In this document: positions 37,476 through 64,000 of the stretch, in pieces
How the letters are laid out: each line of letters starts with the position of its first letter
How positions within the stretch are numbered: position 1 is the stretch's first letter
From: Ignavibacteriales bacterium
Lineage (GTDB): Bacteria > Bacteroidota > Ignavibacteria > Ignavibacteriales > Ignavibacteriaceae
Direction: 5' to 3'
Length of the DNA: 64,000 nt
NCBI GenBank assembly: GCA_015709675.1
Contig: CP054182.1
Coordinates: forward strand, 2,459,448-2,523,447
Made by a program: the position numbers and the translations under genes
Notes under the pieces: generated by a model
The model's database searches: none
What the model was told of the DNA's origin: nothing
What the model saw: the letters and a program-made list of their open reading frames with translations, nothing else

Positions 37476-40400
37476 TTATCCCTCTATAACCCTTACATCT
37501 TCAGATGTAATGGTTATGAGGTCCTGATCGGTAAGGTTAGACACGGTAAGAATCCGTTCCTCCTGATTGCTTATCGCTTTATAGAGAACATTCCTGACGG
37601 TTCGCGCGTTGCCAAAGTTCTTATCCCTTGCGTTATACAGCATAGTGAAATAAACCAGCAGAGAGCGGGAGGCTCCTTCATCAAGTTTATATCCGCTCTT
37701 AACGGCGATGGAGGTTGCAATATTCAGCATTTGTTTTGGATCGTAATCTTCAAACTCGAAGAAATTAGTGAAACGGCTTCTCATGCCGGGATTGGCATCC
37801 AGGAACTCCTGCATTTCATTTGTGTATCCAGCAACAATGACAACCAGCGAATCCTTAAAATCTTCCATTCTCTTCAGGAGTGTATCAATTGCTTCCTGAC
37901 CAAAGTCATTTCCGCCGCGGGCCAGGGTATAGGCTTCATCAATGAAGAGTGTGCCTCCAAGGGCTTTCTGAATTACTTCTTCGGTTTTTGCTGATGTCTG
38001 GCCCTGATAACCGGCAACTAACGCGGCCCGGTCAACTTCCACAAGATGCCCTTTCTCAAGAAGCCCCATTTCCTTATATACCTTGCTGAGAAGACGTGCT
38101 ACAGTAGTTTTACCGGTGCCCGGATTACCAAGAAATGCCGCATGCAGATTTTTCCGTAATACGGTAAGTCCGCGGGCCTCCCGCATTTTTGCGACTTTAA
38201 GGCCTGAAATAAGTTTGTCAACTGATTTCTTAACGGAGTCTAGGCCGGTCAGTTCATTCAGTTCCGCGAGATGTTTTTCCAGCAGTTCTTTATTGCCTTC
38301 TACAGCAACAACTTTTTTCTCTTCGGGTTTGTTTTTACCTATACCTGATATATCTGCCGGAAGAACAACGCTGGTATTTTCAGGTGTGCGCTCATCCTTT
38401 GGTATATCTGCAACTCTGAGCAAATGATTTCTTGCTGTAGAATCAACCAGATTTCTTACCAGCCGTGCATTACCGAAATTTTTATCACGCTGGCGGTAGA
38501 GTTCATTAAAATGAATCTTAACGGCTTCTTCAGCTTCCGGACTCATGGTGAGCCCCTTGCTCTTAAAAATGCTGCGGGCTATTTCCATAAGTTCATCAGG
38601 AGCATAATCCTCAAAGAGAATCTGCTTGGTAAATCTTGACTGCAGTCCGGGATTGCTGTCCAGGAACTTTCGCATATCATCGGTATATCCGGCTGCAATA
38701 CAGATAAACTTGCCTCTGTCATCTTCCATTCTTTTGAGCAGAGTATCAATTGCTTCTTTGCCAAAATCATTTTCGCCGCCTTTAACCAGTGTATATGCCT
38801 CATCTATAAAAAGTGTTCCTCCCATAGACTGGTTAATAAGTTCAGTAGTTTTTTCTGCGGTTTTACCTACGTAGGAAGCTACAAGCTGCTGTCGGTCTGC
38901 TTCAATGAGATGCCCTTTAGGGAGAAGACCCAACGCCGAGAATATCTGGCTCACGATTCTTGCAACGGTGGTTTTACCGGTACCAGGATTTCCGAGGAAG
39001 AGAATGTGATCGGCAAATCTGCTTTGTATACTTTCTCCCTGCTCCACATAATAGCGCGCAAGTTTTACCAGCTCATTAATCTCTTTCTTCACAGTGGGGA
39101 GCCCTGTAAGTCCGTTAAGCTGCGCAAGGTATTTAGTGAGATTTTCCTCATCAACTCCTGCCTTCACTTCTGTTTTAGCAGTGTGTTTCAGGATTTCAGC
39201 AATATCTTCCTCTTTGATGGTAGTCAGCGCGCTCTTATCTCTCAGCTTTTCAGGGAGTTTTAAGTACCGTTTACTGAGTGCCATTTTAGCGTCATTAAAG
39301 CTGTTCCGCACAAGACGTGCGTTACCAAAAGTTTTATCCCGTTTTCTGTAGAGATTGGTAAAATGTTTTTTCAAAAGATCAACGGCGCCCAGTTCAACCG
39401 AATATTCTTCTTTTTCAGCCATGATCTTAAATATTTCGATCAGTTCGTCCGGATTGTAATCTTCAAAATCAAAGAAATGAGTGAACCGGGATTTCATTCC
39501 GGGGTTTGATGAAAGGAAGTCATTCATTTCATCCGGATAACCGGCTGCAATTACCGCAAACTGGCCGGCTTTGTCTTCCATCTTTTTCAGGAGTGTATCA
39601 ATTGCCTCCTGGCCGAAATCCTGTCCGCTGCCTCCTTTTTTGACGAGTGTATATGCTTCGTCAATAAAGAGCAGCCCGCCCATTGAGTCTTCAATAATTT
39701 TTTCTGTTTTCTGTGCTGTTTCACCTATATACTGACCAACCAGTGCACCACGGTCTACTTCAATTATGTGTCCTTTTTCAAGAATGCCCATCGCCTTAAA
39801 GATTTTGCCAAGCACTCTTGCAATTGTTGTTTTACCGGTTCCGGGGTTACCGAGGAATACCGAGTTGACAGATAAATTACCTGCAGTTTTAAGTCCGGAT
39901 TTTTTTCTCTCCCTGATAAATTCAAGATAGTCAACAAAGTCACGCATTGACTGCTTAACGGATTTTAAACCGGTAAAGCTGTCCAACTGAGCAAGCAGAT
40001 CAACCAGTGATTCTTCGCCTTCCGGAACGGCAGGGGAGTCTTTTGGCTTTTCACCGGTCTTATGAACCGAGGCTTTCTTAGCAAGTTCTGCCTCAATCTG
40101 GTTAACGTCTATTTCTTCCGTATTTGGTATATCACTGATACCAACAAGGAACCAGCGCTCACATACTTTCTGATCATGAAGATATATCTCGACACGTGCC
40201 TGACCTCTCTGCCAGTATCCGGGGGAATCTGTTCCCCAGCTCTCAACAAAGACGATATTTTTCCATTCTCTGTCAACTGCTACTTCAAAGTCATGATGTC
40301 CTGCTTCTTCATTGCCCATGTACCAGACCGCGGTGCCGTTTAGCACAGCGTCTTTTACATTATAATAGGGGTTCAGGATAATCACTTCAACGCCTATATA

Positions 40401-41582
40401 TTGAGCACGGTTTTCCGCGAACTGAAGCATATAAATACGCTCACCGGTTTGCAGATCTCTGCTCATATCAAACATTTTAGCATAAAGGGCAGTGACAATT
40501 GCCGAGTCACCCCGTTCGAAATCTGTACGTTTCTTTAGAGTAAGAATAGAACTTTTGCCTGAGCGCATATCCTGAGCAGATGCAGCGGGCGCTGAATCAT
40601 TGTCAAGTTTTCTCAGATCAATGATCTTAAGGTTGCGGTGCTCTTCACGAACGGTCTTGAAATCATCCTTTGTCTCCTCTGAAAGACTAAGTGATTTCAC
40701 ATTATCACTTTTCGGAGCCGCTGGTTCTGTTTCGGTAGTCTCCTTAGCAGCCTGGCGGTTTTCGAGGTTAAGCAGTTTGTTATATATTGCCGTGAATTTT
40801 TCCTCTCCCTCAAATTCATCCTTATAACTTTGTGCTTTAAGGATTGCAGGCCGGAGCTGGAAGAGGGCAATCATAGTTTCCAGTTCGAGCAGTTTTGCTT
40901 TTTTATGGATGGTGACCAGTGACTGATCCTGCAGAATCTTCCTGATTGCCCAGCCGCAGTACCAGTACTCTTTCATCTTAAAAGCTTCCAGAGCTTCATC
41001 CATGAGCTGCGTATCAGGACCTTCATTTTCCTTTTTTACCAGTTTATTCAGGAAAGTAGTCCTCTGAGGCTGGGCGGCAGCGCCGCCGTTAGCTGCATTT
41101 CTGAACCACTCACGCAGCTTAGGGTAAAACTTATTATTCCCTTTATCCTCTTTTATCGCTAATTCAAATTCTTCAAGTGCCTCAGGATATTTACCCATAC
41201 CCGCAAGGGCCTTCGCTTTGAGGTGATGAGCCCAGGCCAGCGGCTGAGCCCCCTTTGCAATTACCACATCCAGATCAGCAATAGCGCCCTGAAATATCCC
41301 GATACGCATTAAAATAAAACCGCGGTATAACCGGGTCTGCGGATATTCGCCGCCAAGATTAACCGCGATGTCAGCGTTTTCAAGAGCCAGATTTGGCTCG
41401 TTATTTTCGAGGTGTGCCCAGGCAAGGCAGATAGCTGCACGAAAATCTCCCGGGCGGGCATCAAAAACTCTCTGCGCTGTCTGCAGAGCGATTCTGAACC
41501 TGCCTTCAGTGAGATGCTCGAAGGACTCTTTCAGGAGTTCTTCGGTCTCTTCGCTTGTCAGCATCCTGGTGCGGTCTTGCAT
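37476..41582 (-). CDS. TPR protein with three CbxX/CfqX-type AAA+ domains
   Basis: A 1368-residue protein. TPR-like helices fill about 1-150 (AQRVFDARPGDFRAAICLAW). A helical linker, then a beta-rich domain (about 350-490, containing WYMGNEEAGHHDFEVAVDRE) precede three AAA+ modules about 288 residues apart. Walker A motifs GNPGTGKTT occur at about 577, 866 and 1152, each with LFIDEAYTL as Walker B. All three keep the key Walker residues. This is the CbbX/SpoVK/EccA class, whose known members remodel Rubisco or serve type VII secretion; no Rubisco gene is present. A second protein of the same plan starts at 60639. The target is unknown. Confidence 0.9.
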   Translation of the reverse strand: MQDRTRMLTSEETEELLKESFEHLTEGRFRIALQTAQRVFDARPGDFRAAICLAWAHLENNEPNLALENADIAVNLGGEYPQTRLYRGFILMRIGIFQGAIADLDVVIAKGAQPLAWAHHLKAKALAGMGKYPEALEEFELAIKEDKGNNKFYPKLREWFRNAANGGAAAQPQRTTFLNKLVKKENEGPDTQLMDEALEAFKMKEYWYCGWAIRKILQDQSLVTIHKKAKLLELETMIALFQLRPAILKAQSYKDEFEGEEKFTAIYNKLLNLENRQAAKETTETEPAAPKSDNVKSLSLSEETKDDFKTVREEHRNLKIIDLRKLDNDSAPAASAQDMRSGKSSILTLKKRTDFERGDSAIVTALYAKMFDMSRDLQTGERIYMLQFAENRAQYIGVEVIILNPYYNVKDAVLNGTAVWYMGNEEAGHHDFEVAVDREWKNIVFVESWGTDSPGYWQRGQARVEIYLHDQKVCERWFLVGISDIPNTEEIDVNQIEAELAKKASVHKTGEKPKDSPAVPEGEESLVDLLAQLDSFTGLKSVKQSMRDFVDYLEFIRERKKSGLKTAGNLSVNSVFLGNPGTGKTTIARVLGKIFKAMGILEKGHIIEVDRGALVGQYIGETAQKTEKIIEDSMGGLLFIDEAYTLVKKGGSGQDFGQEAIDTLLKKMEDKAGQFAVIAAGYPDEMNDFLSSNPGMKSRFTHFFDFEDYNPDELIEIFKIMAEKEEYSVELGAVDLLKKHFTNLYRKRDKTFGNARLVRNSFNDAKMALSKRYLKLPEKLRDKSALTTIKEEDIAEILKHTAKTEVKAGVDEENLTKYLAQLNGLTGLPTVKKEINELVKLARYYVEQGESIQSRFADHILFLGNPGTGKTTVARIVSQIFSALGLLPKGHLIEADRQQLVASYVGKTAEKTTELINQSMGGTLFIDEAYTLVKGGENDFGKEAIDTLLKRMEDDRGKFICIAAGYTDDMRKFLDSNPGLQSRFTKQILFEDYAPDELMEIARSIFKSKGLTMSPEAEEAVKIHFNELYRQRDKNFGNARLVRNLVDSTARNHLLRVADIPKDERTPENTSVVLPADISGIGKNKPEEKKVVAVEGNKELLEKHLAELNELTGLDSVKKSVDKLISGLKVAKMREARGLTVLRKNLHAAFLGNPGTGKTTVARLLSKVYKEMGLLEKGHLVEVDRAALVAGYQGQTSAKTEEVIQKALGGTLFIDEAYTLARGGNDFGQEAIDTLLKRMEDFKDSLVVIVAGYTNEMQEFLDANPGMRSRFTNFFEFEDYDPKQMLNIATSIAVKSGYKLDEGASRSLLVYFTMLYNARDKNFGNARTVRNVLYKAISNQEERILTVSNLTDQDLITITSEDVRVIEG

Positions 41583-50211: not shown

Positions 50212-53200
50212 ATGTACATCATGAAAAGATCGCTTAAAGTCAAAATATTTCTGTTCACAGCCATTCCGGTTCTCCTGCTCCTGGGCATACATCAGGCTGT
50301 TCTGATCTCTGATCAGAAAAAACAGCTTATTGAGAGAACTGACAGGTTAATGTCTCATGAATCACACTCGTTGTCTGAAATTGTTGAGGCACAGTTAGAT
50401 TTTATCAGGGTGGTTGGCGATCTCGGGGCAGAATATGTGGAGTTTTCTGAGCGGGTTTCATTCGGGGAAGCTCTGCCTTATCTCGAGGCAAATATTGGGA
50501 AGGGGAAACTGCTAGTGGGGAGCCGGTTTGCGTTCGAACCTTTTTACAATAATGGGAGACCTTCTATGCCATCCGTTTCTATTGATAGGGATGGTACCAT
50601 TTTTCGAGCTGATTTAGCACCAAAGTTGAATTATCTGGACAGTACAGAACGCTGGTATTCTGTACCAAAGAAAACTTTACAATCTTATTGGGAAGAACCA
50701 TTTCGTGACAGGGAGACAGGTCTGCTGGTCTGCAGATATTCGGTCCCGATTTTGAAACAAGGGAAATTTCTCGGGGTCTCAACCGTTCAGTTTATTTTCG
50801 ATGAACTTACCAGTAAGGTACTTGAATCGGGTTTTCCCACATTCCGCTTTTTTCTGCTCTCTGACAAAGGGAAGTTTGTTTTTCATTCAACAAAAAACAA
50901 ATCAGGGTTAACGATTTTTGACAATAAAATGTCTCAGATGGATTCTATCGGCCGGATGGAATTAGCAGGAAAAATGCTCGGGGGAGGGACAGGTAAAATG
51001 GTAATTCCCTCGAATGATAATACCGGAAACCTATGGGTGTATTACAACACCATCCCGTTGAATAAATGGAGTATTGCCGTTGTTGTGGGTGAAGATGATG
51101 TTCTCGGTGAAGTTAATGATATTTTTGCAAAAGAGATCATTAAAGGTATCCTTTTATTACTCGGAATTCTACTCCTGACATTTATTATTGCCGGAAGTGT
51201 AACAAGACAATTGGCAGAAGTTACCCGTCAGGTAAATATTCTTACCGGGAGCAGGCACTTCAAGAAAATCACAACAAGTTCAAAGGATGAAATCGGGGTT
51301 TTGGTAAGTTCATTTAATGAACTGATACTGAACATTGATAACCGTGATCAGGAGATCAGGGAACTGAATCACCGATTTAAATACGCCTTTCAGGCCACAA
51401 ATGACGGCATATTCGACTGGTTTATCAAGACTGGCAATCTCTATTTCAGCGACCGTTTTTATGTTATGCTCGGATATCAGCCGGGTGAATTTAAACCGAC
51501 AGTAGAAAAATGGGCTCAGCTGAATCATCCCGAATACCGTCAGTTCTCGCTGCTGCAGGCTTACAGGGATCTTAAGAAAGAGGGAAGATACTCAAGGACA
51601 TTAAAAATGGTCCGCAAAGATGGCAGCTTGATCTGGGTACATGCAAAAGGTGCGGCAGCTGAATTTGATGAAAAGGGTAATCCTACGCGCGTTGTTGGCA
51701 CCATCTCTGATATTTCTAAACTCAGGGAATATGAAGATGAGGTTAGTAGCCTTAATAAATCTCTTGAAAGAAAAATTGCGGAAAGAACCGCTGAACTGAA
51801 TGTTCATGTTAAAGCGCTTGATGCTTCAACAATGACTTCCACTACAAACCTCCAGGGGGATATTATCTATGTCAATGATAACCTTTGTCTTATTTCCGGA
51901 TATTCACGTGAGGAACTGCTTGGCCGGAATCATCGTATCATTAACTCCGGCTATCACCCAACCGAATTCTGGGCTGAGGTTTGGAATACATTATTAGCTG
52001 GCAAAATCTGGCGCGGTGAGGTTCGGAATAAGGCAAAAAATGGAGAGTTTTTCTGGTGTGATACAGTCCTGGTGCCGATGCTTAATGAAAAGCAGGAGCC
52101 GGTGGAGTTTTATGCAATTAGAATTGATATTACTGAAAAGAAGAAACAGGAGGAGAATCAGGAAATATTCCGGATTCTGGTTAATTCCATCCCTGATATC
52201 GTAACTTTTAAGGATACAGCCGGAAGATATATATCGGTTAACAATTCGTTTACACAATTTAACGGATTTACGGAGGATCAGGTAAAAGGAAAACGCTCTG
52301 AAGAAATCTTTGATGAAGAAAAGGGAAGATTTTACTCAGATATGGATAAAAAGGCACTTGATTCTTCAGAGAATGTAGAGTCAGAGGAGTGGGTTGAAAC
52401 TAAAACAGGGCAGATGCGGCTGCTGCATACGAATAAATTTGTGGTTAAGGGAAAGGATAATCAGATACTGGGTATTATGGGTATATCCCGTGACATAACC
52501 GATCAAAAGCTTGCCGAGCAAAAAATTATTGATCAGGAGGAGAAGAGCAGAACAATTCTCTCATCGGTCTATGACGGCATTATGGTTATTGATACTTCGG
52601 GACATATTATCAAAATTAATCCGGCAGCCCTGACCATCATCGGATATAATGAAGATGAGGTATTAGGCGGTCATGCACATGAAATTACTCATCATCATTA
52701 TCCTGACGGCAGGCTGTTTCCTGCAATGGATTGCCCGATTGTAGACGTGGTTAAGTCCGGAAAATTTGTCCGCTCGGATTCTGATTATTTCTTCCGCAAG
52801 GATGGTTCGATGTTCCCGGTAGAGTTTTCAGCAGCGCCTATTATGCAGGAAGGTATGATAAGCGGTGCGGTGATTTCCTTTAGGGATATTACGGAAAGAA
52901 AGAAACTTCTTGCTGAGCGTAAAGCGGCCGAAGAAAATACTAAATCCATTCTCAAATCAGTTTATGACGGTATCTTCGGGACTAATGAAGACGGTTTAAT
53001 TACCTTTATTAATCCCGGCGTGGAAAGAATTCTGGGCTTTAAAGCAGAAGAACTGATCGGACAATCATCGCACTCAGTATTCCATCATCATTACCTTGAC
53101 GGCACGGAATATCCGGCAGAAAAGTGTGCAATCAGAAAAACACTGGATAAGGGGGTTGTATCCAGAGTGGACGATGAGGTATATTGGAAAAAAGACGGCA

Positions 53201-56200
53201 CACCTGTTGCAGTTGAATATACGGTAACCCCGATATTTAAAGGTGATTTTGTAATTGGTTCAGTTGTCAGTTTTAGTGATATAACCCGCAGAAAAGAACT
53301 GGAAAATGAACTGAAGCGGACTCTGGTGCTTGCGGACAATGCACTTGAGCTTTCTAATTCAGGTTTCTGGGATGTGGCTCTTGATGGTTCACAGACAATT
53401 TGGGAGTCTCCTAAAGCCGTTATGATATACGGATTCGAAGTTAATGAAGATGGCAGATATCCGATAGCAGAACTTGACAAGGGAGTAAGGGCAACTGATG
53501 AGGAACATGCAGATGTGGTCTTCAAAGCTTTTCTCTCTGTTGCCAACGGCGAAACAGACAGTTTTGACCAGACTCATAAGTTTTTAAGGCCTGTTGACGG
53601 CAAAGTTGTCTGGATACGCGCAATCGGAAATATTCAGGCAGATGAGCATGGTGTAAAACATATATATGGTGTTGTTACGGATATCACCGATAGAAAAAAC
53701 TATGAAGAACAGATAGCGCGGTCAAAAGCCGATACAGAAAGCATTCTCGATTCGATGATGATTCCGACCGCGGTTACCAGAATTAGCGATGACAAGGTAA
53801 TGCGCATTAATAAAGCTGCTGAAGATTTTCATCTTGCCTCTGAAGAAGTGATCAGGGATTCCAAATCAATTGAATGGTACGCTAATCCTGATGACAGGTT
53901 TTCGCTTATTGAAGAGTTGAAACGAACCGGAAAGATTGTCAATAAAGAAATTCAGTTTAAGCGTCTCGGTAATAACGAAGTGAGGGATGTTTCAGTATCC
54001 TATCTTCCGATCATATACGGGGGTGAACAGTGCCTTGTCGGCTCGCTTCTTGATCTGACGGAATTAAAAAATATCCAAAGAGATCTGGTGCACGCCAAAG
54101 AGATGGCTGACCGTCTGGTGGATGCAATGCCCATACCAACTTCGGTAACCAGAGTTGAAGACGGAAAAATTATCCGCTCAAATATTGCAATGGCAGAGTT
54201 TCATGGATTGTCAATGGAGGAATTGAACTCTACAAGGGCAAGTGACTGGTATGATAACCCTGAAGACCATAAAGCCCTGGTTGAGAATCTGCGAAGGGAT
54301 GGCTATGTAAGAGATTTTGAAGTTACATTCCAGAGATATAAAACACATGAAAGACGAAACGTGCTCCTGAGTTTTATTCCTCTTGAGTATAACGGAGAAG
54401 ATTGTCTTGTCGGCTCAGTAATTGATATTACCGATCTGAAAAAAATCCAGGATGAACTGAAATCTGCAAAAGAAACGGCAGAATCAGCTACGCTGGTTAA
54501 GAGCCAGTTCCTGGCAACCATGTCTCATGAAATAAGAACTCCCATGAATGCCATTATAGGGCTTTCACATCTGATCATGAAGACACAACTTGACAAGCGT
54601 CAGAAAGATTATATTGCTAAAATAGACCGGTCGGCACAGTCTCTGCTTGGCATTATTAATGATATATTGGATTTCTCCAAGATTGAAGCCGGCAAACTTG
54701 TGATCGAAGAAATTGAATTTGATCTTGAGACAATGTTCGATACGGTTTCAAATCTGATCGCGCACAGAGCGCAGGAAAAAGGTCTGGAATTTTCTATCTA
54801 TGTTGCCCCTGATGTGCCACACCATCTGAAAGGGGATCCGCTGCGTATCGGACAGATACTTACTAATTATTGCAGTAATGCCGTGAAGTTTACTGAGAAG
54901 GGTGATATAACCGTAAGGGTAAGACAGATAAGGAAAGTAGCAGATGCAATTAAACTGGAATTTGCAGTATCGGATACCGGTATCGGTATGAACGAGGAAC
55001 AGCTTGCAAAAATGTTTACCGCATTTCAGCAGGCAGATTCATCAACCACAAGAAAATTCGGCGGAACAGGGCTCGGACTTGCCATTTCGAAACGGCTCTC
55101 TGAACTTATGGGAGGTGAAGCCTGGGTTGAAAGTGAACCAGGAAAGGGAAGTACTTTCTATTTTACAGTAATAGCCAGGCAGGCAACTGAAAAGAAAACC
55201 AAAGAATTCCGTCCTTCACCTGATCTGAGGGGCATTAAAGTTCTGGTTGTTGATGATAATGAAACCAGCAGAATGATTTTAAACGAAGCGCTTGTATCAT
55301 TTTCCTTCAGAGTGAAGACGGTAGATTCAGGCATAAAAGCAATCCGTGAACTGGAAAGCGCATTGAGAGAACCATATCAACTGGTACTTATGGACTGGAA
55401 GATGCCTGATATGGATGGCCTTGAGACCTCACGGCTTATTCGAATGAACAGCGGTATTAAAACGCCAGCAATTATTATGGTCACTGCTTTCGGCAAGGAA
55501 GAAATTGCGCACAGAGCAAGTGAAATTGGCATTAACGGATTCCTTACAAAGCCGGTTAATCATTCCATCCTGTTTGATTCTATTATGCAGGTCTTTGGAA
55601 AGACCGGAGAGAGGATAGTGGAAACCGAACAAACAGGTACTGCTTATTCCGGTATTGAAGAAATAAAAGGGGCAAGAGTGCTGCTCACTGAGGATAACGA
55701 AATAAATCAGCAGGTTGCTACTGAACTCCTTGAGGCAGCAGGTATGAGAGTTGAGATAGCAAACAATGGCGCCGAAGCTGTAGAGAAGATTAAGAATTCC
55801 GGAGTTCCGGGTAAATATGATCTGGTTTTCATGGATCTTCAGATGCCTGTAATGGATGGATATACGGCTACCATTGAAATCCGTAAATTGAAAGAATACA
55901 GCGAACTTCCGATAGTTGCAATGACTGCTGATGCTATGTCCGGAGTAAAAGAAAAATGCATTATGCTTGGCATGAAAGGATTTATATCTAAGCCAATAAA
56001 TCCTGATGAAGTTTACCAGGCTCTTGTTACGTGGATAAAGCCAGGCAAAAGAGTTTCTGATGCAGCCCCGGCTGAAAATAAACCTGCAGCTGAGGTTGAA
56101 CTGCCGGCACTGCAATTTGTAAATATTGAAGAAGGGCTGAAGCGCGTTAATAATAATAAGAAACTGTATCTGAATCTTCTTACCAAATTCAGTGAGAGCC

Positions 56201-56691
56201 AAAACAATACAGTTGAGAACATTAAGTCAGCCATCAGGAACGGCGACATTGAACTCGCCATCAGACTTGCCCATACTCTTAAAGGAGTGGCAGGTAATCT
56301 TGGAGCAAAATCAGTCCAGGAAATCAGCGGCAGAGTGGAGTACACCCTGCGTGATAACAGATTAGATGAAACATTACCTTTGATTTATGAAATGCAATCT
56401 CAATTAGAACCGGCACTGACTGAAATAACTGAATGGCTTAATTCGATGAAAAAGACTCAACCAGCTGTCAGCGGTGAACTAGATAAGGTGCGTTTTACAA
56501 ATCTGCTCAATGAACTTGCAGAACTGCTCAGACAGGATGATTTTGAGTCATATAAAAAAATTGATGAAATAGAAGCACTGCCGGGTGTTGCAGAATTCCA
56601 CGGACAGCTTCAGGAAATCCAAAAGGATATAAAAAACTTCTCATTTGAAGAAGCTCTTCAAAAAGTGAATCAGGTTGTAAAGAAAATTTAA
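50212..56691 (+). CDS. Giant multi-PAS hybrid histidine kinase with two receivers and HPt
   Basis: A 2159-residue membrane kinase. TM1 (about 12-28), a Cache-like periplasmic domain (about 35-300) and TM2 (about 311-333) are followed by HAMP. About eight PAS domains occupy 390-1420; two of them (HHHYPDGRLFPAMDCPI and HHHYLDGTEYPAEKCAI) and the last two (IPTAVTRISDDKV, IPTSVTRVEDGKI) are evident duplications. HisKA has FLATMSHEIRTPMNAIIGLS (His about 1440), then an ATPase with GGTGLGLAISKRL. Receivers follow with Asp about 1727 (MDWKMPDMDG) and 1874 (MDLQMPVMDG), and an HPt with LAHTLKGVAGNLGA (His about 2021). It can run a full phosphorelay. An alternative start is the ATG at 50221. It leads a seven-gene operon. 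Confidence 0.93.
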   Translation: MYIMKRSLKVKIFLFTAIPVLLLLGIHQAVLISDQKKQLIERTDRLMSHESHSLSEIVEAQLDFIRVVGDLGAEYVEFSERVSFGEALPYLEANIGKGKLLVGSRFAFEPFYNNGRPSMPSVSIDRDGTIFRADLAPKLNYLDSTERWYSVPKKTLQSYWEEPFRDRETGLLVCRYSVPILKQGKFLGVSTVQFIFDELTSKVLESGFPTFRFFLLSDKGKFVFHSTKNKSGLTIFDNKMSQMDSIGRMELAGKMLGGGTGKMVIPSNDNTGNLWVYYNTIPLNKWSIAVVVGEDDVLGEVNDIFAKEIIKGILLLLGILLLTFIIAGSVTRQLAEVTRQVNILTGSRHFKKITTSSKDEIGVLVSSFNELILNIDNRDQEIRELNHRFKYAFQATNDGIFDWFIKTGNLYFSDRFYVMLGYQPGEFKPTVEKWAQLNHPEYRQFSLLQAYRDLKKEGRYSRTLKMVRKDGSLIWVHAKGAAAEFDEKGNPTRVVGTISDISKLREYEDEVSSLNKSLERKIAERTAELNVHVKALDASTMTSTTNLQGDIIYVNDNLCLISGYSREELLGRNHRIINSGYHPTEFWAEVWNTLLAGKIWRGEVRNKAKNGEFFWCDTVLVPMLNEKQEPVEFYAIRIDITEKKKQEENQEIFRILVNSIPDIVTFKDTAGRYISVNNSFTQFNGFTEDQVKGKRSEEIFDEEKGRFYSDMDKKALDSSENVESEEWVETKTGQMRLLHTNKFVVKGKDNQILGIMGISRDITDQKLAEQKIIDQEEKSRTILSSVYDGIMVIDTSGHIIKINPAALTIIGYNEDEVLGGHAHEITHHHYPDGRLFPAMDCPIVDVVKSGKFVRSDSDYFFRKDGSMFPVEFSAAPIMQEGMISGAVISFRDITERKKLLAERKAAEENTKSILKSVYDGIFGTNEDGLITFINPGVERILGFKAEELIGQSSHSVFHHHYLDGTEYPAEKCAIRKTLDKGVVSRVDDEVYWKKDGTPVAVEYTVTPIFKGDFVIGSVVSFSDITRRKELENELKRTLVLADNALELSNSGFWDVALDGSQTIWESPKAVMIYGFEVNEDGRYPIAELDKGVRATDEEHADVVFKAFLSVANGETDSFDQTHKFLRPVDGKVVWIRAIGNIQADEHGVKHIYGVVTDITDRKNYEEQIARSKADTESILDSMMIPTAVTRISDDKVMRINKAAEDFHLASEEVIRDSKSIEWYANPDDRFSLIEELKRTGKIVNKEIQFKRLGNNEVRDVSVSYLPIIYGGEQCLVGSLLDLTELKNIQRDLVHAKEMADRLVDAMPIPTSVTRVEDGKIIRSNIAMAEFHGLSMEELNSTRASDWYDNPEDHKALVENLRRDGYVRDFEVTFQRYKTHERRNVLLSFIPLEYNGEDCLVGSVIDITDLKKIQDELKSAKETAESATLVKSQFLATMSHEIRTPMNAIIGLSHLIMKTQLDKRQKDYIAKIDRSAQSLLGIINDILDFSKIEAGKLVIEEIEFDLETMFDTVSNLIAHRAQEKGLEFSIYVAPDVPHHLKGDPLRIGQILTNYCSNAVKFTEKGDITVRVRQIRKVADAIKLEFAVSDTGIGMNEEQLAKMFTAFQQADSSTTRKFGGTGLGLAISKRLSELMGGEAWVESEPGKGSTFYFTVIARQATEKKTKEFRPSPDLRGIKVLVVDDNETSRMILNEALVSFSFRVKTVDSGIKAIRELESALREPYQLVLMDWKMPDMDGLETSRLIRMNSGIKTPAIIMVTAFGKEEIAHRASEIGINGFLTKPVNHSILFDSIMQVFGKTGERIVETEQTGTAYSGIEEIKGARVLLTEDNEINQQVATELLEAAGMRVEIANNGAEAVEKIKNSGVPGKYDLVFMDLQMPVMDGYTATIEIRKLKEYSELPIVAMTADAMSGVKEKCIMLGMKGFISKPINPDEVYQALVTWIKPGKRVSDAAPAENKPAAEVELPALQFVNIEEGLKRVNNNKKLYLNLLTKFSESQNNTVENIKSAIRNGDIELAIRLAHTLKGVAGNLGAKSVQEISGRVEYTLRDNRLDETLPLIYEMQSQLEPALTEITEWLNSMKKTQPAVSGELDKVRFTNLLNELAELLRQDDFESYKKIDEIEALPGVAEFHGQLQEIQKDIKNFSFEEALQKVNQVVKKI

Positions 56692-57902: not shown

Positions 57903-58274
57903 ATGTCCGCAAAAACAATATTAATCGTTGATGATGCACCTGAGAATATTTCCATTCTCGCTGAAATACTTTCTGGGTATGATATTAAAGTTGCTACTAA
58001 CGGCGCAAAAGCACTTCAGATTGCGGAAAAGTTTCCTAACCTTGATTTGATTCTCCTGGATATCATTATGCCGAACATGAGCGGATTTGAGGTTGCAGAA
58101 AAATTAAAAGCCAATCCGCTAACAGCCCGGATTCCGATCATTTTTGTCACAGGTCAGTCTGATTCTGCAAGTTTTATCAGAGGATTTGAAGTTGGCGCGG
58201 AAGAATATATTATTAAACCATTTGATGCGGATGAAATCATTAACCTGGTGACACAAAAACTTACTGGCAAATGA
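57903..58274 (+). CDS. Single-domain response regulator receiver
   Basis: A 123-residue receiver without output domain. TILIVDDAPENISILAEIL has the acidic pair, Asp53 is in LLDIIMPNMSG, and EEYIIKPFDADE has the conserved lysine. It probably shuttles phosphoryl groups among the neighbouring kinases. The ATGA overlap couples it to the REC-PP2C gene. Confidence 0.93.
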   Translation: MSAKTILIVDDAPENISILAEILSGYDIKVATNGAKALQIAEKFPNLDLILLDIIMPNMSGFEVAEKLKANPLTARIPIIFVTGQSDSASFIRGFEVGAEEYIIKPFDADEIINLVTQKLTGK

Positions 58275-59992
58275 ATAAAAGTAACAGCACTATACTTATA
58301 GTTGACGATGCCCCGGAAAATATAACGATTCTGGGAGAGGTATTGCAGGGGTATAAAAAGCTTGTTGCTCTTAATGGTGAAAAAGCTCTTCAGATAATTC
58401 AGACAAAAAAGCCTGACTTAATTCTGCTTGATATTGTGATGCCGGGAATGGATGGTTTTGAAGTGTGCAGAAGACTGAAAGAGGACCCGGAGACAAAAGA
58501 TATACCTGTTATTTTTATTACGGGTCAGACGGATATTTCCGATGAAACCAGAGGATTGGATCTTGGAGCAGTGGATTTTATTCCGAAACCGATCTCAGCC
58601 CCTGTTGTGCTCGCGCGGGTTAATAACCATCTTGAACTTTCAATAAACAGACGTCAGCTTGCAGAACAGAACAAGAAGCTTGAACAGCACAATAAATTCA
58701 TTACCGACAGTATTAATTACGCAAAGCGCATTCAGCAGGCAATACTTCCGGCCAAAACTATTTTCGAAAAACTGTTTGCCGAAAGTTTTCTGATATTCAG
58801 ACCGAAAGACATTGTTTCGGGAGATTTTTACTGGGCCGGCGAAGTTCACGGAGAGAAAATTGTTGTGGTAGTTGACTGTACGGGGCACGGTGTGCCGGGT
58901 GCATTCATGTCCATGATTGGTAACACCCTGCTTAATGATATTGTTCTGGTGAAGGGTATCACCAGTCCCGGCAAAATACTTCATGCCCTTGATGAGGGAA
59001 TTATTCATGAACTCAATAAAGATACCCATGCAGAAACTTTTGACGGAATGGATGCAGCAGTATGCAAATTTGCAGCTGGTAAAAATGAAGTGATATTCGC
59101 CGGGGCCTACAGGCCAATGTATGTGGTTGAAGGTGAAGAACTGACTGAGTTTAAGGGGGATAAAAAATCTCTGGGTGATGTGAGGAAATCACTTACGTTT
59201 ACTGAACACAGGGTTCCCTATACTGGAAATACCTGTTTTTATGTATTCACGGATGGTATAACCGATCAAAATAATAATGAGAATATTAAGTTTGGTTCCG
59301 GGAATCTGAAACGTGTTCTTGTGCAGCTGCAGCATGAGCCGCTTATCAGGCAGAAAGAAAAAATCATTGAAATTTTGATGAATCACATGGGAGAGGAAAG
59401 TCAGCGGGACGATATAACATTTGTCGGCTTGCGGCCAGGCAGTTATAACCAATCCGGTAAAAAAAGCAGAATACGGCTTGAGCACGATACCATGGGAAAT
59501 CTTCTGCTGATTGACTATCAGGGAATCTGCGATCATGAACTGATAGAAGAGTTTACCGATATACTTGAGGCAGAAGTTTCTGAAAAACTTCCGCTGCCAC
59601 TTTATAAAATACTGCTTTTCAGTACAAATGAGATGATTCAGAATATCGGATTTTATTCAGCAGAACGGCTTGATGAGCGGCGGAACAGCGGTATTGGCAG
59701 TTTTTCCGTTGAGTTCAGTAATTCTGCATTCCTGATTACAACACGGAATAAGATTGATATCTCTAAATATATGATGATAAAAACAAAGATTGATGAATTT
59801 AATAATTTATCAGCTGAAGAGTTAAAGGCAGTATATAAGCAGAAGGTAAGATCAGCATCGGATGCTGAAAGCAAGGGGGGCGGTATTGGCATTATTGAAG
59901 TGCTGAGGAAAACCAAAAGTAAAATTACGGCTGATTTAGAGGCGGATACAAGTACAATGATATTACAGTTACAAATCAAACGAGGTGAATAA
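58271..59992 (+). CDS. REC-PP2C phosphatase fused to a SiaB-like kinase domain
   Basis: The 573-residue protein joins three parts. A receiver (about 7-127, Asp54 in LLDIVMPGMDG) is followed by a coiled coil (about 130-165). A SpoIIE/PP2C phosphatase (about 175-385) has VSGDFYWAGEVHGEK, VVDCTGHGVPGAFMSMIGN, FTDGITDQ and RDDITFVGL. The last 175 residues (about 398-573), with ELKAVYKQKVRSASDAESKG and GGIGIIEVLRKTKS, resemble SiaB/DUF6272 kinases of the SiaABCD biofilm system. Phosphatase and kinase for the same SiaC target are thus one polypeptide under receiver control, and the SiaC gene is the next one. The SiaB assignment is by pattern recall and needs a profile search. Confidence 0.88.
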   Translation: MNKSNSTILIVDDAPENITILGEVLQGYKKLVALNGEKALQIIQTKKPDLILLDIVMPGMDGFEVCRRLKEDPETKDIPVIFITGQTDISDETRGLDLGAVDFIPKPISAPVVLARVNNHLELSINRRQLAEQNKKLEQHNKFITDSINYAKRIQQAILPAKTIFEKLFAESFLIFRPKDIVSGDFYWAGEVHGEKIVVVVDCTGHGVPGAFMSMIGNTLLNDIVLVKGITSPGKILHALDEGIIHELNKDTHAETFDGMDAAVCKFAAGKNEVIFAGAYRPMYVVEGEELTEFKGDKKSLGDVRKSLTFTEHRVPYTGNTCFYVFTDGITDQNNNENIKFGSGNLKRVLVQLQHEPLIRQKEKIIEILMNHMGEESQRDDITFVGLRPGSYNQSGKKSRIRLEHDTMGNLLLIDYQGICDHELIEEFTDILEAEVSEKLPLPLYKILLFSTNEMIQNIGFYSAERLDERRNSGIGSFSVEFSNSAFLITTRNKIDISKYMMIKTKIDEFNNLSAEELKAVYKQKVRSASDAESKGGGIGIIEVLRKTKSKITADLEADTSTMILQLQIKRGE

Positions 59993-60364
59993 ATGGAAAA
60001 TCTGATTATATACAAAACCAAAAGCACACTGGCAGTTAATTTTGATGCAAGGACGGGTATTCTTGAATTATCCGGCTCATCTTATCCTGAGAATACGAGT
60101 GAATTCTTTCAGCCGCTGATAACATGGATTCAGAATTATTTTCTGCAGGTTACAAAACCGCTGACCCTGAATCTTAAAATTGATTATCTTAATTCAAGTT
60201 CCATTAAATTTCTGAGTGATATTATAAATAAACTGCAGCATTACTATAAGAGCGGCGGTGAGGTTGAGATCAACTGGTATTACAAGGAAGATGATGAGGA
60301 TATGAAAGAAATGGGTGAGGAAATTAAAGAAGATGTAGCATTTAAATTCAATCTTATTGTATAA
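59993..60364 (+). CDS. SiaC family (DUF1987) phosphoprotein
   Basis: The 123-residue protein has the DUF1987 pattern: LAVNFDARTGILELSGSSYP, ENTSEFFQPLITWIQNYF, LNLKIDYLNSSSIKFLSDII and EVEINWYYKEDDEDMKEMGE. The serine run at 68-70 (NSSS) sits where the phosphorylated Thr68 of P. aeruginosa SiaC is expected. SiaC is switched by SiaB kinase and SiaA phosphatase, both resembled by the protein encoded immediately upstream (stop and start are adjacent). In Pseudomonas the unphosphorylated form activates the diguanylate cyclase SiaD; no such gene is here. Confidence 0.88.
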   Translation: MENLIIYKTKSTLAVNFDARTGILELSGSSYPENTSEFFQPLITWIQNYFLQVTKPLTLNLKIDYLNSSSIKFLSDIINKLQHYYKSGGEVEINWYYKEDDEDMKEMGEEIKEDVAFKFNLIV

Positions 60365-60378
60365 TAAGGAAAAATTCC

Positions 60379-60636
60379 ATGGCATTCGACTCTGAAAAAC
60401 TTGATGAAAGTGAAAAACCGTTCATTGAACATTTTGAAATGATTGAGAAGGCAAAAGCGGTTTCTTCATCTATTCCAAACGATATTCGAAAGCTTATTGT
60501 TGAATATATGAAGCTGACTGAATCTTATGAAAAATTATTAAAAACAACCATCCGGATATCCAAAATGGGTGACAAGGCCCAGAAAAAGCTCATTAAGTAT
60601 AAAGAGCTAATGGATACTCTCAGAAATATAGAATAA
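60379..60636 (+). CDS. Small helical protein in the SiaC operon
   Basis: This 85-residue protein is predicted almost all helical, with heptad-like spacing in the second half (KLLKTTIRISKMGDKAQKKL). That part is like the signalling helix that precedes cyclase domains in other proteins, though no catalytic domain follows. It lies between SiaC and the AAA+ gene with gaps of 14 and two bases, so it may bridge the two. I do not recognise a named family. Confidence 0.75.
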   Translation: MAFDSEKLDESEKPFIEHFEMIEKAKAVSSSIPNDIRKLIVEYMKLTESYEKLLKTTIRISKMGDKAQKKLIKYKELMDTLRNIE

Positions 60637-60638
60637 CA

Positions 60639-63600
60639 ATGGAAGAGCGTTCAGTTCAGTCCTCCCGGCTGCAGGAGGCATTCGAACATCTGTGGAAAGG
60701 AAGATTCCGCCTTGCCTTTTCGCTATCGGAACAGATAAAGGATGAACTTCCGGATAATGCAGACGCGGCTATCTGTTATGCATGGGCTTCACTGGAAAAC
60801 GGAGATCCTTACACAGCCCAAAAATATCTTGACAGGTCGCGTAACTGCTCAGCACAAGGCACTCTTACGCAAATGTACCGGGGATATGTGCAGATGCGTC
60901 TCAGCAGTTTCGAAGCTGCTATCTATGATTTCAACATGACGGAAGGGAAGCAGAAAGAACTGCTTGCCTGGACCTATCTGAACAAAGCGAAGTCGCTGGC
61001 AAGCATCGGAGAGATTGACAGGGCAATGAGTTTTTATGAACTCGGGCTGATTATTGACAATAACGCAAACCCTGCATGGAAATCTCTCAGAAAGTATTTC
61101 AGTGCTATTCAGAAGTGCATAAGGGAAGGGGATAAATCCAATCCGGCTGATTATTACCAGATAACAGAGGATGCACTCAGACAAAAAGAATACTGGTGCT
61201 CGCTCTTTTTATCAAACAAACTAGCTGGCAAAGAAGGAACCGCTAAGAAAGAGTTTCAGCTGATTCAGCTTGAATCAATGCTGAAAATGAATCAGCTTTC
61301 AGTGCTTGAAAATAAAATAGAGGAATATGAATCAGAATTAGGGAATGAAGAGAAATTCCTGGCACTTACCTTTGCGCTCAATAAAATTAAAGAGAAGCAA
61401 CTATCAGAAGTTAAAACTGTAATACCTCAAAAAGAGGAAAATTTTTCTGATCCGCTGGAGATATATCACACTCCCGAAGCAATCGTAGAGAAAGTTCTTC
61501 TTTTTAATGCCTCTGAGGACAGGGATAATAAACAGTCGAAAAATCTTCTTGAATTTGATTTTAATAAAATGCCTGAAATAGGTATCCAGATTTTTCTGAA
61601 GAATCCGAACTATAGAAAAGCAGATTCTGAATTCAACTGTTTCTATGCATGGTTTCAGGATGAAGATATCATTGAACAGTCTTCAGTGACAGCAAAGATT
61701 CCTGCTGACTGGGAACAATATACACTTCCTGAGACAATACGGCTTTCAGACAACCATCTCTGGAAGAAGGGGAATGCGCGCTTTGAATTCTTTATTAATC
61801 GAAAGAAAGTACTAAGCCGAAGCTTCAGTCTGGGTAATTCAGAAGTACCCGTCCCTGAAAAGAAGCAGGAAAAAAATACTTCAGCTGAGACAACAGTCAC
61901 TTTCGAAGAGGTTTTTGAAGAACTGAACAGTATCATAGGACTTGGCAGTGTTAAGGAAAGCGTCAGGGCACTGGTTGATTATCTGGAAGTTGTGAAGGAG
62001 CGAAAAGAGCTTGGCCTTAAGGCACAGGAAAATATTAGTGTTCATGCAACATTTCTCGGCAATCCGGGAACCGGCAAAACAACCGTAGCCCGGCTGATGG
62101 GAAAAATATATAAAAGCATGGGGTTGCTGAGCAAGGGTGAGGTGATTGAAGTTGACCGGTCATCGCTTGTCGGGCAATATGTAGGTGAGACGGCACAAAA
62201 AACAGATAAGATTATAGAAGATGCTCTCGGAAATGTCCTATTTATTGATGAAGCTTATACTCTGGTCAAAAAAGGGCAGAGTAATGATTTTGGACAAGAG
62301 GCCATTGATATACTTCTAAAAAGAATGGAAGATAAAAAAGGGGAGTTCTTCGTAATTGCGGCAGGATATCCGGATGAGATGAATGACTTTCTTGAGGCAA
62401 ATCCTGGTTTGAAATCCCGTTTCACGCATCATTTCATGTTTGAAGACTATACACCTGACGAGATGATGCAGATATTCAGGAAAATGATAGCTGATGAAGA
62501 TTACCGGATTACTGAAGAAGCAGAGACCGATTTACAAAAAGCGTTTACCAGACTCTACCGCTCAAGAGATAAAAATTTTGGCAATGCCAGAACGGTGCGG
62601 AAGGTTTTTGAAGATGCTAAAATGCAGGTAAGCCGCCGGTATTTAAAACTGACGAAGATAGACAGAACCAAAGAAAAGCTCACTACTATCAGCAGTGAAG
62701 ACATTCTTGAAATATTTTCTGCAGGATCTGCAAAAAAGAGTTATCAGGCTCCGTTAAATGAAGAACAGCTTTCTGAAGCAATGACTGAACTGAACCGCCT
62801 GACGGGACTTTCATCAGTTAAGCGTGATGTGGCTGAGATGATAAAACTTGCGAAGTTTTACAGGGAGTCAGGTGAGGATCTGGGGAATAAATTTTCTTCA
62901 CATATTTTATTTCTCGGGAATCCAGGCACGGGAAAAACAACCGTTGCCCGCATCATCAGCAAAATATATTCAGCGCTTGGTATTCTTCCGGCAGGGCAGT
63001 TAATTGAGACAGACAGGCAGGGGATGGTTGCGGTTCATGTAGGGGAAACTGCCCAGAAAACCACTTCTCTTATCAATAAATCCATGGGAGGAACTCTCTT
63101 TATTGATGAAGCATATACACTTGTAAAGAAAGGAAGCAGCGGAGATTTTGGGCAGGAGGCCATTGATGTGCTGCTTAAAAGGATGGAGGATGACAGGGGT
63201 AAGTTTATCGTAATAGCCGCGGGATATACGGAAGAGATGAAATCATTTTTGGAAAGCAACCCGGGGTTAAAATCCCGTTTTACGAGAATTTTCACTTTTG
63301 AAGATTATACAACTCAGGAGATGATGGAAATTTTTGACCGTATGTGTAAATCCTCCAGAGTGAAACTGAATGATGAAGCAAGAACAATGCTTGCTAATCA
63401 TTTTAATGAATTATACAGAAGCAGAGATAAAAACTTTGGCAATGCACGCCTGGTCAGGAACACCTTTGACCAGGTAATACGGGAGATGAATTTGCGTCTC
63501 AGTGAGATGGATGTGACATTACTGACAGATGAAGCTAAATCCTCCATTCTTCCGGAAGATATTAAAACAGTTCTGCCTCAGACGGCTAAACCCTCAACAG

Positions 63601-64000
63601 GTGCTGTTGAAGGTGATCCTGTTAAACTGATGAAGCTTATAGATGATCTACATTCACTTACTGGTCTTGAATCAGTGAAAGCGGAAGTGGATAAACTGAT
63701 TAATAGTCTGAAGATAGCAAAGGTCAGAAAGGAAAGAGGACTGCAGGTAATACAAAAACCATTGCATTCTGTTTTCCTTGGCAATCCCGGTACAGGTAAA
63801 ACCACAGTTGCCCGGCTCATGAGCAGTATATTCAAAGAACTTGGCATTATTGAGAGAGGGCAGCTTATTGAGGTTGACCGTGCACAACTGGTTGCCGGTT
63901 ATTCCGGACAGACCGCACTCAAAACAGATGAGGTAATTACGAAAGCTCTCGGCGGAACTCTCTTTATTGATGAGGCATATACGCTTGCAAGAGGAGGAAG
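60639..64000 (+). CDS. TPR protein with three CbxX-type AAA+ domains, 3' truncated by window edge
   Basis: The ATG at 60639 opens a frame that runs off the window after about 1120 codons. The architecture repeats that of the 1368-residue protein at 37476-41582: TPR-like helices (about 1-150), a linker and beta-rich region (about 300-410), then AAA+ modules with Walker A at about 473, 762 and 1049. LFIDEAYTL Walker B motifs follow; the third is at about 1109, just before the edge. It belongs to the CbbX/SpoVK/EccA class. It is the last gene seen in the SiaC operon, two bases after the helical protein, and so is a candidate output of that switch. Confidence 0.92.
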   Translation, partial: MEERSVQSSRLQEAFEHLWKGRFRLAFSLSEQIKDELPDNADAAICYAWASLENGDPYTAQKYLDRSRNCSAQGTLTQMYRGYVQMRLSSFEAAIYDFNMTEGKQKELLAWTYLNKAKSLASIGEIDRAMSFYELGLIIDNNANPAWKSLRKYFSAIQKCIREGDKSNPADYYQITEDALRQKEYWCSLFLSNKLAGKEGTAKKEFQLIQLESMLKMNQLSVLENKIEEYESELGNEEKFLALTFALNKIKEKQLSEVKTVIPQKEENFSDPLEIYHTPEAIVEKVLLFNASEDRDNKQSKNLLEFDFNKMPEIGIQIFLKNPNYRKADSEFNCFYAWFQDEDIIEQSSVTAKIPADWEQYTLPETIRLSDNHLWKKGNARFEFFINRKKVLSRSFSLGNSEVPVPEKKQEKNTSAETTVTFEEVFEELNSIIGLGSVKESVRALVDYLEVVKERKELGLKAQENISVHATFLGNPGTGKTTVARLMGKIYKSMGLLSKGEVIEVDRSSLVGQYVGETAQKTDKIIEDALGNVLFIDEAYTLVKKGQSNDFGQEAIDILLKRMEDKKGEFFVIAAGYPDEMNDFLEANPGLKSRFTHHFMFEDYTPDEMMQIFRKMIADEDYRITEEAETDLQKAFTRLYRSRDKNFGNARTVRKVFEDAKMQVSRRYLKLTKIDRTKEKLTTISSEDILEIFSAGSAKKSYQAPLNEEQLSEAMTELNRLTGLSSVKRDVAEMIKLAKFYRESGEDLGNKFSSHILFLGNPGTGKTTVARIISKIYSALGILPAGQLIETDRQGMVAVHVGETAQKTTSLINKSMGGTLFIDEAYTLVKKGSSGDFGQEAIDVLLKRMEDDRGKFIVIAAGYTEEMKSFLESNPGLKSRFTRIFTFEDYTTQEMMEIFDRMCKSSRVKLNDEARTMLANHFNELYRSRDKNFGNARLVRNTFDQVIREMNLRLSEMDVTLLTDEAKSSILPEDIKTVLPQTAKPSTGAVEGDPVKLMKLIDDLHSLTGLESVKAEVDKLINSLKIAKVRKERGLQVIQKPLHSVFLGNPGTGKTTVARLMSSIFKELGIIERGQLIEVDRAQLVAGYSGQTALKTDEVITKALGGTLFIDEAYTLARGG

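Follow-up and report, generated by a model that had tools for sequence, protein, structure and literature searches.

A response regulator joining a PP2C phosphatase to a SiaB-family kinase, encoded beside SiaC and a free-standing SiaD-stalk-like protein in an Ignavibacteriales genome

The subject of this report is a run of seven genes from an Ignavibacteriales bacterium, in which a PP2C-type phosphatase and a SiaB-family kinase are joined within one response regulator. The stretch of DNA analysed, referred to below as the window, comprises 64,000 nucleotides (G000:C1:2459448-2523447) and lies on the single 4,212,902-base contig of a 4.21-Mb genome; the seven genes share the forward strand and are separated by 9, 26, -4, 0, 14 and 2 bases (Table 1). 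Two histidine kinases and a stand-alone receiver are followed by the fusion protein of 573 amino acids (aa), by SiaC, by an 85-aa protein that resembles the stalk of SiaD, and by a triple-AAA ATPase. In Pseudomonas aeruginosa, SiaA and SiaB cycle the phosphoprotein SiaC at T68 (PMC7647112), and phosphorylation of SiaC blocks its binding to the stalk of SiaD (PMC8457831). An earlier note on this DNA had described the open reading frames (ORFs) of the fusion (58271-59992, 573 aa) and of SiaC (59993-60364, 123 aa) as directly abutting, and these coordinates, lengths and zero gap are correct. It had also regarded the two genes as a self-contained module, a view that does not hold, given the kinases and the separate receiver upstream, and the stalk-like protein and ATPase downstream that are the likely output.

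Table 1. Features of the seven-gene run (window positions; indented features lie within the preceding gene) and hemerythrin genes at related loci
Feature	Position	Strand	Basis
Sensor hybrid histidine kinase, 2159 aa, first gene of the run	50212..56691	+	Pfam: PDC sensor, several PAS, HisKA, HATPase_c, two receivers, Hpt
Receiver-HisKA-HATPase_c histidine kinase, 391 aa	56701..57876	+	Pfam
Stand-alone receiver, 123 aa; 4-base overlap with the fusion gene	57903..58274	+	Pfam Response_reg 3.9e-27
Receiver-PP2C-SiaB fusion, 573 aa	58271..59992	+	ORF, Pfam, NCBIfam
 Receiver domain, residues 8-117	58292..58621	+	Pfam; D12/D13, D54, T84, K106
 PP2C domain with helical entry, residues 125-388	58643..59434	+	NF038263 stretch 125-388; 6k4e_A E=1.3e-42
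 SiaB-family kinase domain, residues 405-559	59483..59947	+	NF038262, conservation, 6kko_A, fold
SiaC, 123 aa; putative phosphosite Ser68 (codon 60194-60196)	59993..60364	+	PF09345 1.5e-42; fold; T68 alignment
Free-standing SiaD-stalk-like protein, 85 aa, proposed SiaC target	60379..60636	+	Homology to N-terminal stalks (GGDEF, cyclase, histidine kinase, PP2C proteins)
 Stalk motif KMGDKAQKKL, at the position of SiaD's SiaC-binding motif RISDRYQ	60562..60591	+	D65/Q68 conservation; alignment with SiaD 7e6g_A
Triple-AAA ATPase, weak TPR-like N-terminus, open at window end, possible effector	60639..63998	+	AAA PF00004, three stretches; 1260 aa in genome
Hemerythrin HHE gene	L040 9476-9883
Hemerythrin HHE gene	L042 13144-13563
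Hemerythrin HHE gene	L175 4087-4494
Hemerythrin HHE gene	L176 10881-11288

Three Pfam families cover the fusion protein, all above their curated cut-offs: Response_reg at residues 8-117 (E=7.3e-28), SpoIIE at 197-388 (1.3e-18) and DUF6272 at 452-558 (2e-22; 79.7 bits, with the cut-off at 26.6). The NCBIfam model of SiaB-family kinases, SiaB_fam_kinase NF038262, is also passed (92.6 bits; cut-off 85). The receiver holds the acidic pair D12/D13 together with D54, T84 and K106; D54 we take to be the phospho-acceptor, and the other residues presumably have the roles they play in receivers generally. In the PP2C domain, residues D185, D202, C203, G205, D328, G329 and D332 correspond to D457, D474, C475, G477, D600, G601 and D604 of SiaA, as named in the part of PMC7647112 that deals with that enzyme, the two sets being matched by motif and not by a computed alignment. 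Pfam, NCBIfam and the motif positions thus bear out the earlier note's proposal of a single chain that combines a receiver, a PP2C domain complete with metal-site motifs and a kinase of the SiaB family, with SiaC directly after. Since the fusion occupies a single open frame, and since the three-domain form recurs in five further loci, all over the Pfam cut-offs, an assembly or frameshift artefact and a chance ORF are both ruled out.

The assignment of the C-terminal domain rests on sequence and on fold. Searched alone against the sequences of the Protein Data Bank (PDB), the kinase slice has a sole match, 6kko_A, the SiaB chain of the SiaB-SiaC crystal (E=2.7e-6), which a profile built from 21 SiaB domains finds at E=3.9e-36. 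An AlphaFold model of the SiaB domain read through into SiaC has a mean predicted local distance difference test score (pLDDT) of 90.6 and a predicted template-modelling score (pTM) of 0.75; in a Foldseek search with this model, the best entries after the SiaC chains are the SiaB chains 6kko_A and 6kko_B (E=2.1e-6 and 3.6e-5), and VIA-align places SpoIIAB/RsbW-type kinases at Z 11.2 to 13.0 of the SiaB domain. The domain therefore has a GHKL-like fold, as in anti-sigma kinases, and is SiaB by sequence family; the comparison with DUF6272/SiaB that the earlier note had proposed (Pfam, NF038262, 6kko_A) places it in that family by sequence, while its fold resembles both SiaB and the SpoIIAB/RsbW kinases. 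In an alignment of 21 SiaB rows, that of the window protein included, four positions do not vary (E454, N458, N493 and G540 in fusion numbering) and three more (Q457, G536 and G538) are at least 90% conserved, so that the nucleotide-binding residues of the family, namely the N-box (E454/Q457/N458), N493 and the G-box (G536/G538/G540), are present, as the earlier note's assignment to this family implied. E454 aligns with the glutamate that, counted along the alignment, is E61 of SiaB, described in PMC7647112 as the predicted catalytic residue. Because these conserved residues are present, the fusion protein is probably active.

SiaC matches PF09345 over residues 6-122 (E=1.5e-42; 144.5 bits, cut-off 24.5), and its model superimposes on apo-SiaC 6kkp with Z 22.4 and 0.9 A over 121 residues. 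The earlier note had named Ser68-70 as the candidate region of phosphorylation, and this stretch contains Ser68, which aligns with T68, the residue phosphorylated in P. aeruginosa SiaC, and is the putative phosphosite here. Serine is found at position 68 in 11/11 aligned SiaC loci of the order, and the 83 SiaC ORFs of the named loci, drawn from the best 80 of at least 475 relatives, carry threonine in 75 cases and serine in 3, with 5 that do not fit the pattern. The residues of SiaC that contact the SiaD stalk have been defined in the 7e6g crystal (PMC8457831); of these, the window protein retains Y65, N67, S68 (Ser/Thr68), S69, I71, E110 and D114.

The likely output of the system, which the earlier reading had overlooked, is the next gene, whose 85-aa product is stalk-like and carries no cyclase, followed by the triple-AAA ATPase. 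No family in Pfam or NCBIfam matches this small protein above cut-off, and alone it has no match below E=0.4 among PDB sequences; it is, however, homologous to the N-terminal part of proteins that adjoin SiaC in other genomes. Behind such stalks lie a GGDEF domain (by Pfam in L187 and L189, by sequence pattern also in L054, L055, L088 and L090), a class III cyclase (by Pfam in L047, L048, L134, L087 3393-5060, L203, L204, L206 and L208), a histidine kinase (by Pfam in L088, L186, L187, L209 and L211-L213) or a PP2C domain (by Pfam in L046 and L087 2312-3316). In the stalk alignment an aspartate (D65) is found in 24/24 rows and a glutamine three residues on (Q68) in 23/24; the SiaC-binding motif of SiaD, S82-D83-R84-Y85-Q86 (PMC8457831), has the same D-x-x-Q spacing. 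Against 177,635 PDB sequences, the stalk profile A2 finds SiaD (7e6g_A) as its best match, at E=0.044, aligned on both SiaC-binding motifs. We infer that the 85-aa stalk binds SiaC. It is of note that the stalk-cyclases and stalk-histidine kinases of L204, L206, L208 and L211-L213 have no SiaC match in their 3.2-kb loci and SiaC elsewhere in the genome, and could be targets in trans, and that the Thiomargarita stalk-cyclase L087 3393-5060 has a C-terminal hemerythrin domain.

The distribution of the stalk follows that of SiaC. In a sample of 296 genomes of the phylum, SiaB and SiaC are found above cut-off in an identical set of 18, and stalk matches in 14, namely 13 of the 18 SiaC-positive genomes and one (G280) of the 278 SiaC-negative ones (Fisher p=7e-18, with ten of the genomes having supplied rows of the profile). 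With these ten excluded, three of the four stalk-positive genomes fall among the 8 SiaC-positive of 286 (p=6e-5), the three sharing genera with profile genomes and thus not being independent. At the level of neighbouring genes, a stalk profile of 16 rows was run on 83 held-out loci with 1273 ORFs between them. Eleven ORFs matched below 1e-4 and no other until E=0.35; ten of these eleven are at most three genes from SiaC, a zone that takes in 471 of the 1273 ORFs, and the remaining one, in L189, comes after an annotated DUF1987 gene. All 83 loci had been picked for SiaC or SiaB, and the test gauges specificity among neighbours only. Of the SiaC loci examined in the order, 11/11 have the free stalk directly after SiaC. 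Most SiaB-SiaC pairs of Bacteroidota metagenome-assembled genomes (MAGs) in L086-L165, the best 80 relatives mentioned above, have no PP2C or stalk neighbour by profile. In profile searches, the genome of the window holds one match each to SiaB, SiaC and the stalk, and its single GGDEF match (39.9 bits) lies in another region. Since the lone stalk and the lone GGDEF domain are separate, and the gene after SiaC encodes an 85-aa stalk without GGDEF, the stalk-GGDEF cyclase that is the Pseudomonas output was not found in this genome.

The ATPase gene that closes the run encodes three AAA stretches matching SpoVK/CbbX/EccA models. An AAA gene follows the stalk in 8/11 loci of the order. Ranked by score, the first eight matches to the N-terminal 403 residues all come from SiaC-stalk operons, which hold eight copies in total (the query itself, and the others at 507 to 243 bits and 58-37% identity), and the ninth match has 231 bits and 34% identity. 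By profile, the short flanks of the twelve next-best AAA loci (L222-L233), some 0.9-1.5 kb before the gene and only 127 bases in L225, contain neither a stalk nor SiaC, SiaB or PP2C. A second member of the family, of 1368 aa, is encoded within the window at 37476-41582 (-), its N-terminus being matched by that of the 60639 gene.

These observations suggest a switch of the SiaABC type in which kinase and phosphatase reside in one response regulator, unphosphorylated SiaC binds the 85-aa stalk, and the state is passed on to the AAA ATPase, a reading that we consider probable. It starts from the domains and active-site residues, the gene order, the homology between SiaC-linked stalks and the 85-aa protein, and the lack of a second stalk match in the genome. 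The upstream sensor kinases would pass phosphate to the receivers, and the state of the fusion's own receiver would bias the protein between dephosphorylation of SiaC by the PP2C domain and phosphorylation at Ser68 by the SiaB domain. That the receiver picks between the two activities is suggested by analogy with HsbR of P. aeruginosa, which displays kinase activity when unphosphorylated and phosphatase activity when phosphorylated (PMC6482189); on this model a phosphorylated receiver would favour phosphatase over kinase and thereby yield unphosphorylated SiaC. The latter would bind and order the 85-aa helix, which is not joined to a diguanylate cyclase, and the small protein would most likely relay its state to the co-encoded ATPase. 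The enzyme activities, the direction of receiver control and the action on the ATPase are what we infer here, the first step (from sensor kinases to receiver) and the last (to the ATPase) being the least certain.

A number of results weigh against this reading, at the level of both the enzymes and the output. The SiaA biofilm phosphatase equivalog NF038263 (658 positions) is not reached by the fusion, which scores 195.7 of the required 700 bits over model positions 390-656, that is, the PP2C part only; SiaC falls below the cut-off of 150 of the biofilm equivalog NF038265 (126.9 bits) and is a member of the family that is not called the same protein as the biofilm SiaC, and three of the stalk-contacting residues of Pseudomonas SiaC are replaced in the window protein (M75 by S, D79 by N, R103 by D). 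The SiaD match of the stalk profile is weak, a designed helical protein following close behind at 0.045, and a profile of the nine free-standing stalks only does not find SiaD in the PDB up to E=10, so that the link between stalk and SiaD runs through the fused forms. A SiaC-stalk read-through model from the Thiomargarita locus L087 reaches a pTM of 0.49, and the alignment behind it (A7) is in register over the motif part but not in the N-terminal half of most stalk rows, nor in the tails of SiaC. For 5 of the 18 SiaC-positive genomes the profile search gives no stalk match. Finally, the N-terminal 403 residues of the AAA protein match 126/164 genomes of the order, where SiaB is found in 9, so that the AAA family extends more widely than the link to SiaC; the gene is missing beside the stalk in 3/11 loci, and G341, in which fusion, SiaC and stalk are present, has no AAA match with the N-terminal query. 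This weakens the notion that stalk and AAA gene always go together, and the ATPase is likely to be a partner of the SiaC-stalk module, though not an obligatory one.

Part of this evidence would also suit a situation in which the fusion is a working SiaC kinase/phosphatase while the true target of SiaC is another protein, with the 85-aa product acting as a decoy that sequesters SiaC or being unrelated to the output. The faint similarity to SiaD at the PDB level, the low score of the SiaC-stalk model, the stalk of G341 without a detected AAA homolog, and the SiaC-positive genomes without a stalk match, in which other SiaC targets may exist, all speak in its favor; however, the position of the stalk directly after SiaC in 11/11 loci, its homology to effector-fused stalks near SiaC and its being the only such match in the genome lead us to regard it as unlikely. 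A less probable alternative is that the SiaB domain serves merely for docking or regulation, the protein being mainly a receiver-controlled phosphatase. The genome does encode a paralogous receiver-PP2C protein (L002 / L040 9998-11173) that is 61% identical over fusion residues 4-394 and has no SiaB or SiaC beside it, and G343 carries a second fused copy (L181) with a damaged G-box; nevertheless, in its nucleotide-site motifs the kinase domain of the fusion has every residue that the aligned SiaB rows keep invariantly or in 90% or more of cases, and the genome search revealed no second SiaB that could phosphorylate SiaC. Least probable by far is a regulator of the HsbR/CrsR type whose kinase part sequesters a sigma factor: the domain order (receiver, PP2C, GHKL-fold kinase) is the same, and the partner likewise has a STAS-like fold, but by sequence family the kinase is DUF6272 and the partner SiaC, with no HATPase_c_2 or STAS Pfam match up to E=1, and the genes after SiaC are those of the stalk and the AAA protein.

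SiaB is found above cut-off in 9 of the 164 genomes of the order at 10 places, five of them within frames of 569-586 aa and five in frames of 185-199 aa; besides the window, the three-domain fusion is present in G341, G419, G314 and G343 of the same order and in G160, which belongs to a different family within the class. Of the 18 SiaB-positive genomes of the phylum sample, 2 (G000 and G160) have the fused form, and no fused SiaB was found outside the phylum among 76 SiaB ORFs of the named loci (again the best 80 of at least 475 relatives). DUF6272 matches below cut-off were left uncounted (6 genomes in the phylum sample, 3 in the order); two loci with weak matches, L057 and L058, have no SiaB, SiaC or PP2C profile match. 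In the unfused operons L042, L043, L175, L176 and L177, receiver-PP2C and SiaB genes are adjacent and in the order of the fused halves, which indicates that the fusion joins neighbors; the same unfused arrangement is seen in L086, from a named Ignavibacteriaceae MAG with gene sizes as in L177.

As to the number of fusion events, the SiaB tree joins the window domain to the five unfused ones, at a fork of weak support (87/74), groups the remaining four fused loci of this order together (88/90) and leaves G160 outside. Three changes of label between fused and unfused are needed, of which the starred branches force at least two, so that more than one fusion, or fusion followed by re-splitting, is likely; a single origin of all fusions is not supported by this tree. 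The receiver-PP2C and SiaC trees need 2 and 3 changes, their starred branches forcing only 1; the rows nearest to the window protein in the SiaC tree come from unfused loci, but neither this tree nor the receiver-PP2C tree gives it a firm place. Starred branches are few in these trees, and L044, L181 and, for receiver-PP2C, L087 form long rows.

Variants of the module are seen at several loci. In the second fused copy of G343 (L181 2977-4698) most of the G-box is missing from the SiaB part, and the protein may be a phosphatase whose kinase domain is dead. L049 4720-5814 (G045) encodes a 364-aa protein with tandem SiaB domains, followed by SiaC, and the second SiaC locus of G184 (L182 5679-11308) holds PP2C, SiaC, stalk and a 979-aa AAA protein, with no SiaB match in the locus. 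In three SiaC operons and at the locus of the paralogous receiver-PP2C protein, a hemerythrin HHE protein of 135-139 aa is encoded between the sensor kinase and the receiver or receiver-PP2C genes (Table 1), which makes a redox or oxygen link possible.

The stalk is the more surprising part of the system, and suggests an output without cyclic di-GMP. On a broader and more tentative view, which is plausible without being favored, SiaC would be a general, exchangeable switch whose portable docking stalk is carried by diguanylate cyclases, class III cyclases, histidine kinases and PP2C proteins, and which in this order acts through a free adaptor linking the fusion to a triple-AAA ATPase, independently of cyclic di-GMP. 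The stalk signature allows candidate SiaC targets to be named from sequence, among them cyclases, kinases, phosphatases and the AAA-linked adaptor, and the fusion ties a Ser/Thr switch directly to two-component phosphorelays, its opposing activities being measurable together in one protein. Neither a receiver-PP2C-SiaB fusion nor the SiaC stalk on other effectors was found in the literature searched, which did not extend to subscription papers such as that of Chen et al. 2020 on SiaABCD; DUF1987 proteins have been described as widespread, and suggested to modulate adjacent proteins (PMC8457831).

Among known systems, the closest is SiaABCD of P. aeruginosa, with which the window shares a PP2C phosphatase, a DUF6272 kinase and a DUF1987 (SiaC) phosphoprotein that works via a helical stalk (passages on these proteins in PMC7647112 and PMC8457831). 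In Pseudomonas, however, the enzymes are a membrane HAMP-PP2C protein and a separate kinase, whereas here they form one response regulator; the phosphosite is Thr68 there and would be Ser68 here; and the stalk, which in Pseudomonas belongs to the diguanylate cyclase SiaD and is the part through which SiaC activates that enzyme, is in the window a free-standing protein without GGDEF, encoded beside a triple-AAA ATPase. The principle of a receiver, PP2C and kinase in one regulator, unmentioned by the earlier note, is already known from HsbR-HsbA and from CrsR-CrsA of Shewanella oneidensis, in which a receiver, a PP2C domain and a GHKL kinase act on a small phosphorylatable partner (as described for these regulators in PMC6482189); their kinase doubles as an anti-sigma domain and has an anti-sigma-factor antagonist for its partner, whereas the window has a SiaB-family kinase and SiaC. 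A further parallel is offered by RsbT-RsbU, where a partner turns a helical linker into a coiled coil and so activates a dimeric effector, and where inputs of this kind, common to phosphatases, cyclases and histidine kinases, have been proposed (PMC12143880, the main text of which does not mention SiaC). In the present case SiaC would be the partner, and the SiaD-type stalk, which occurs on class III cyclases and as a separate protein as well, would be the linker; by this analogy the SiaC stalk looks like a second case of a partner-gated linker.

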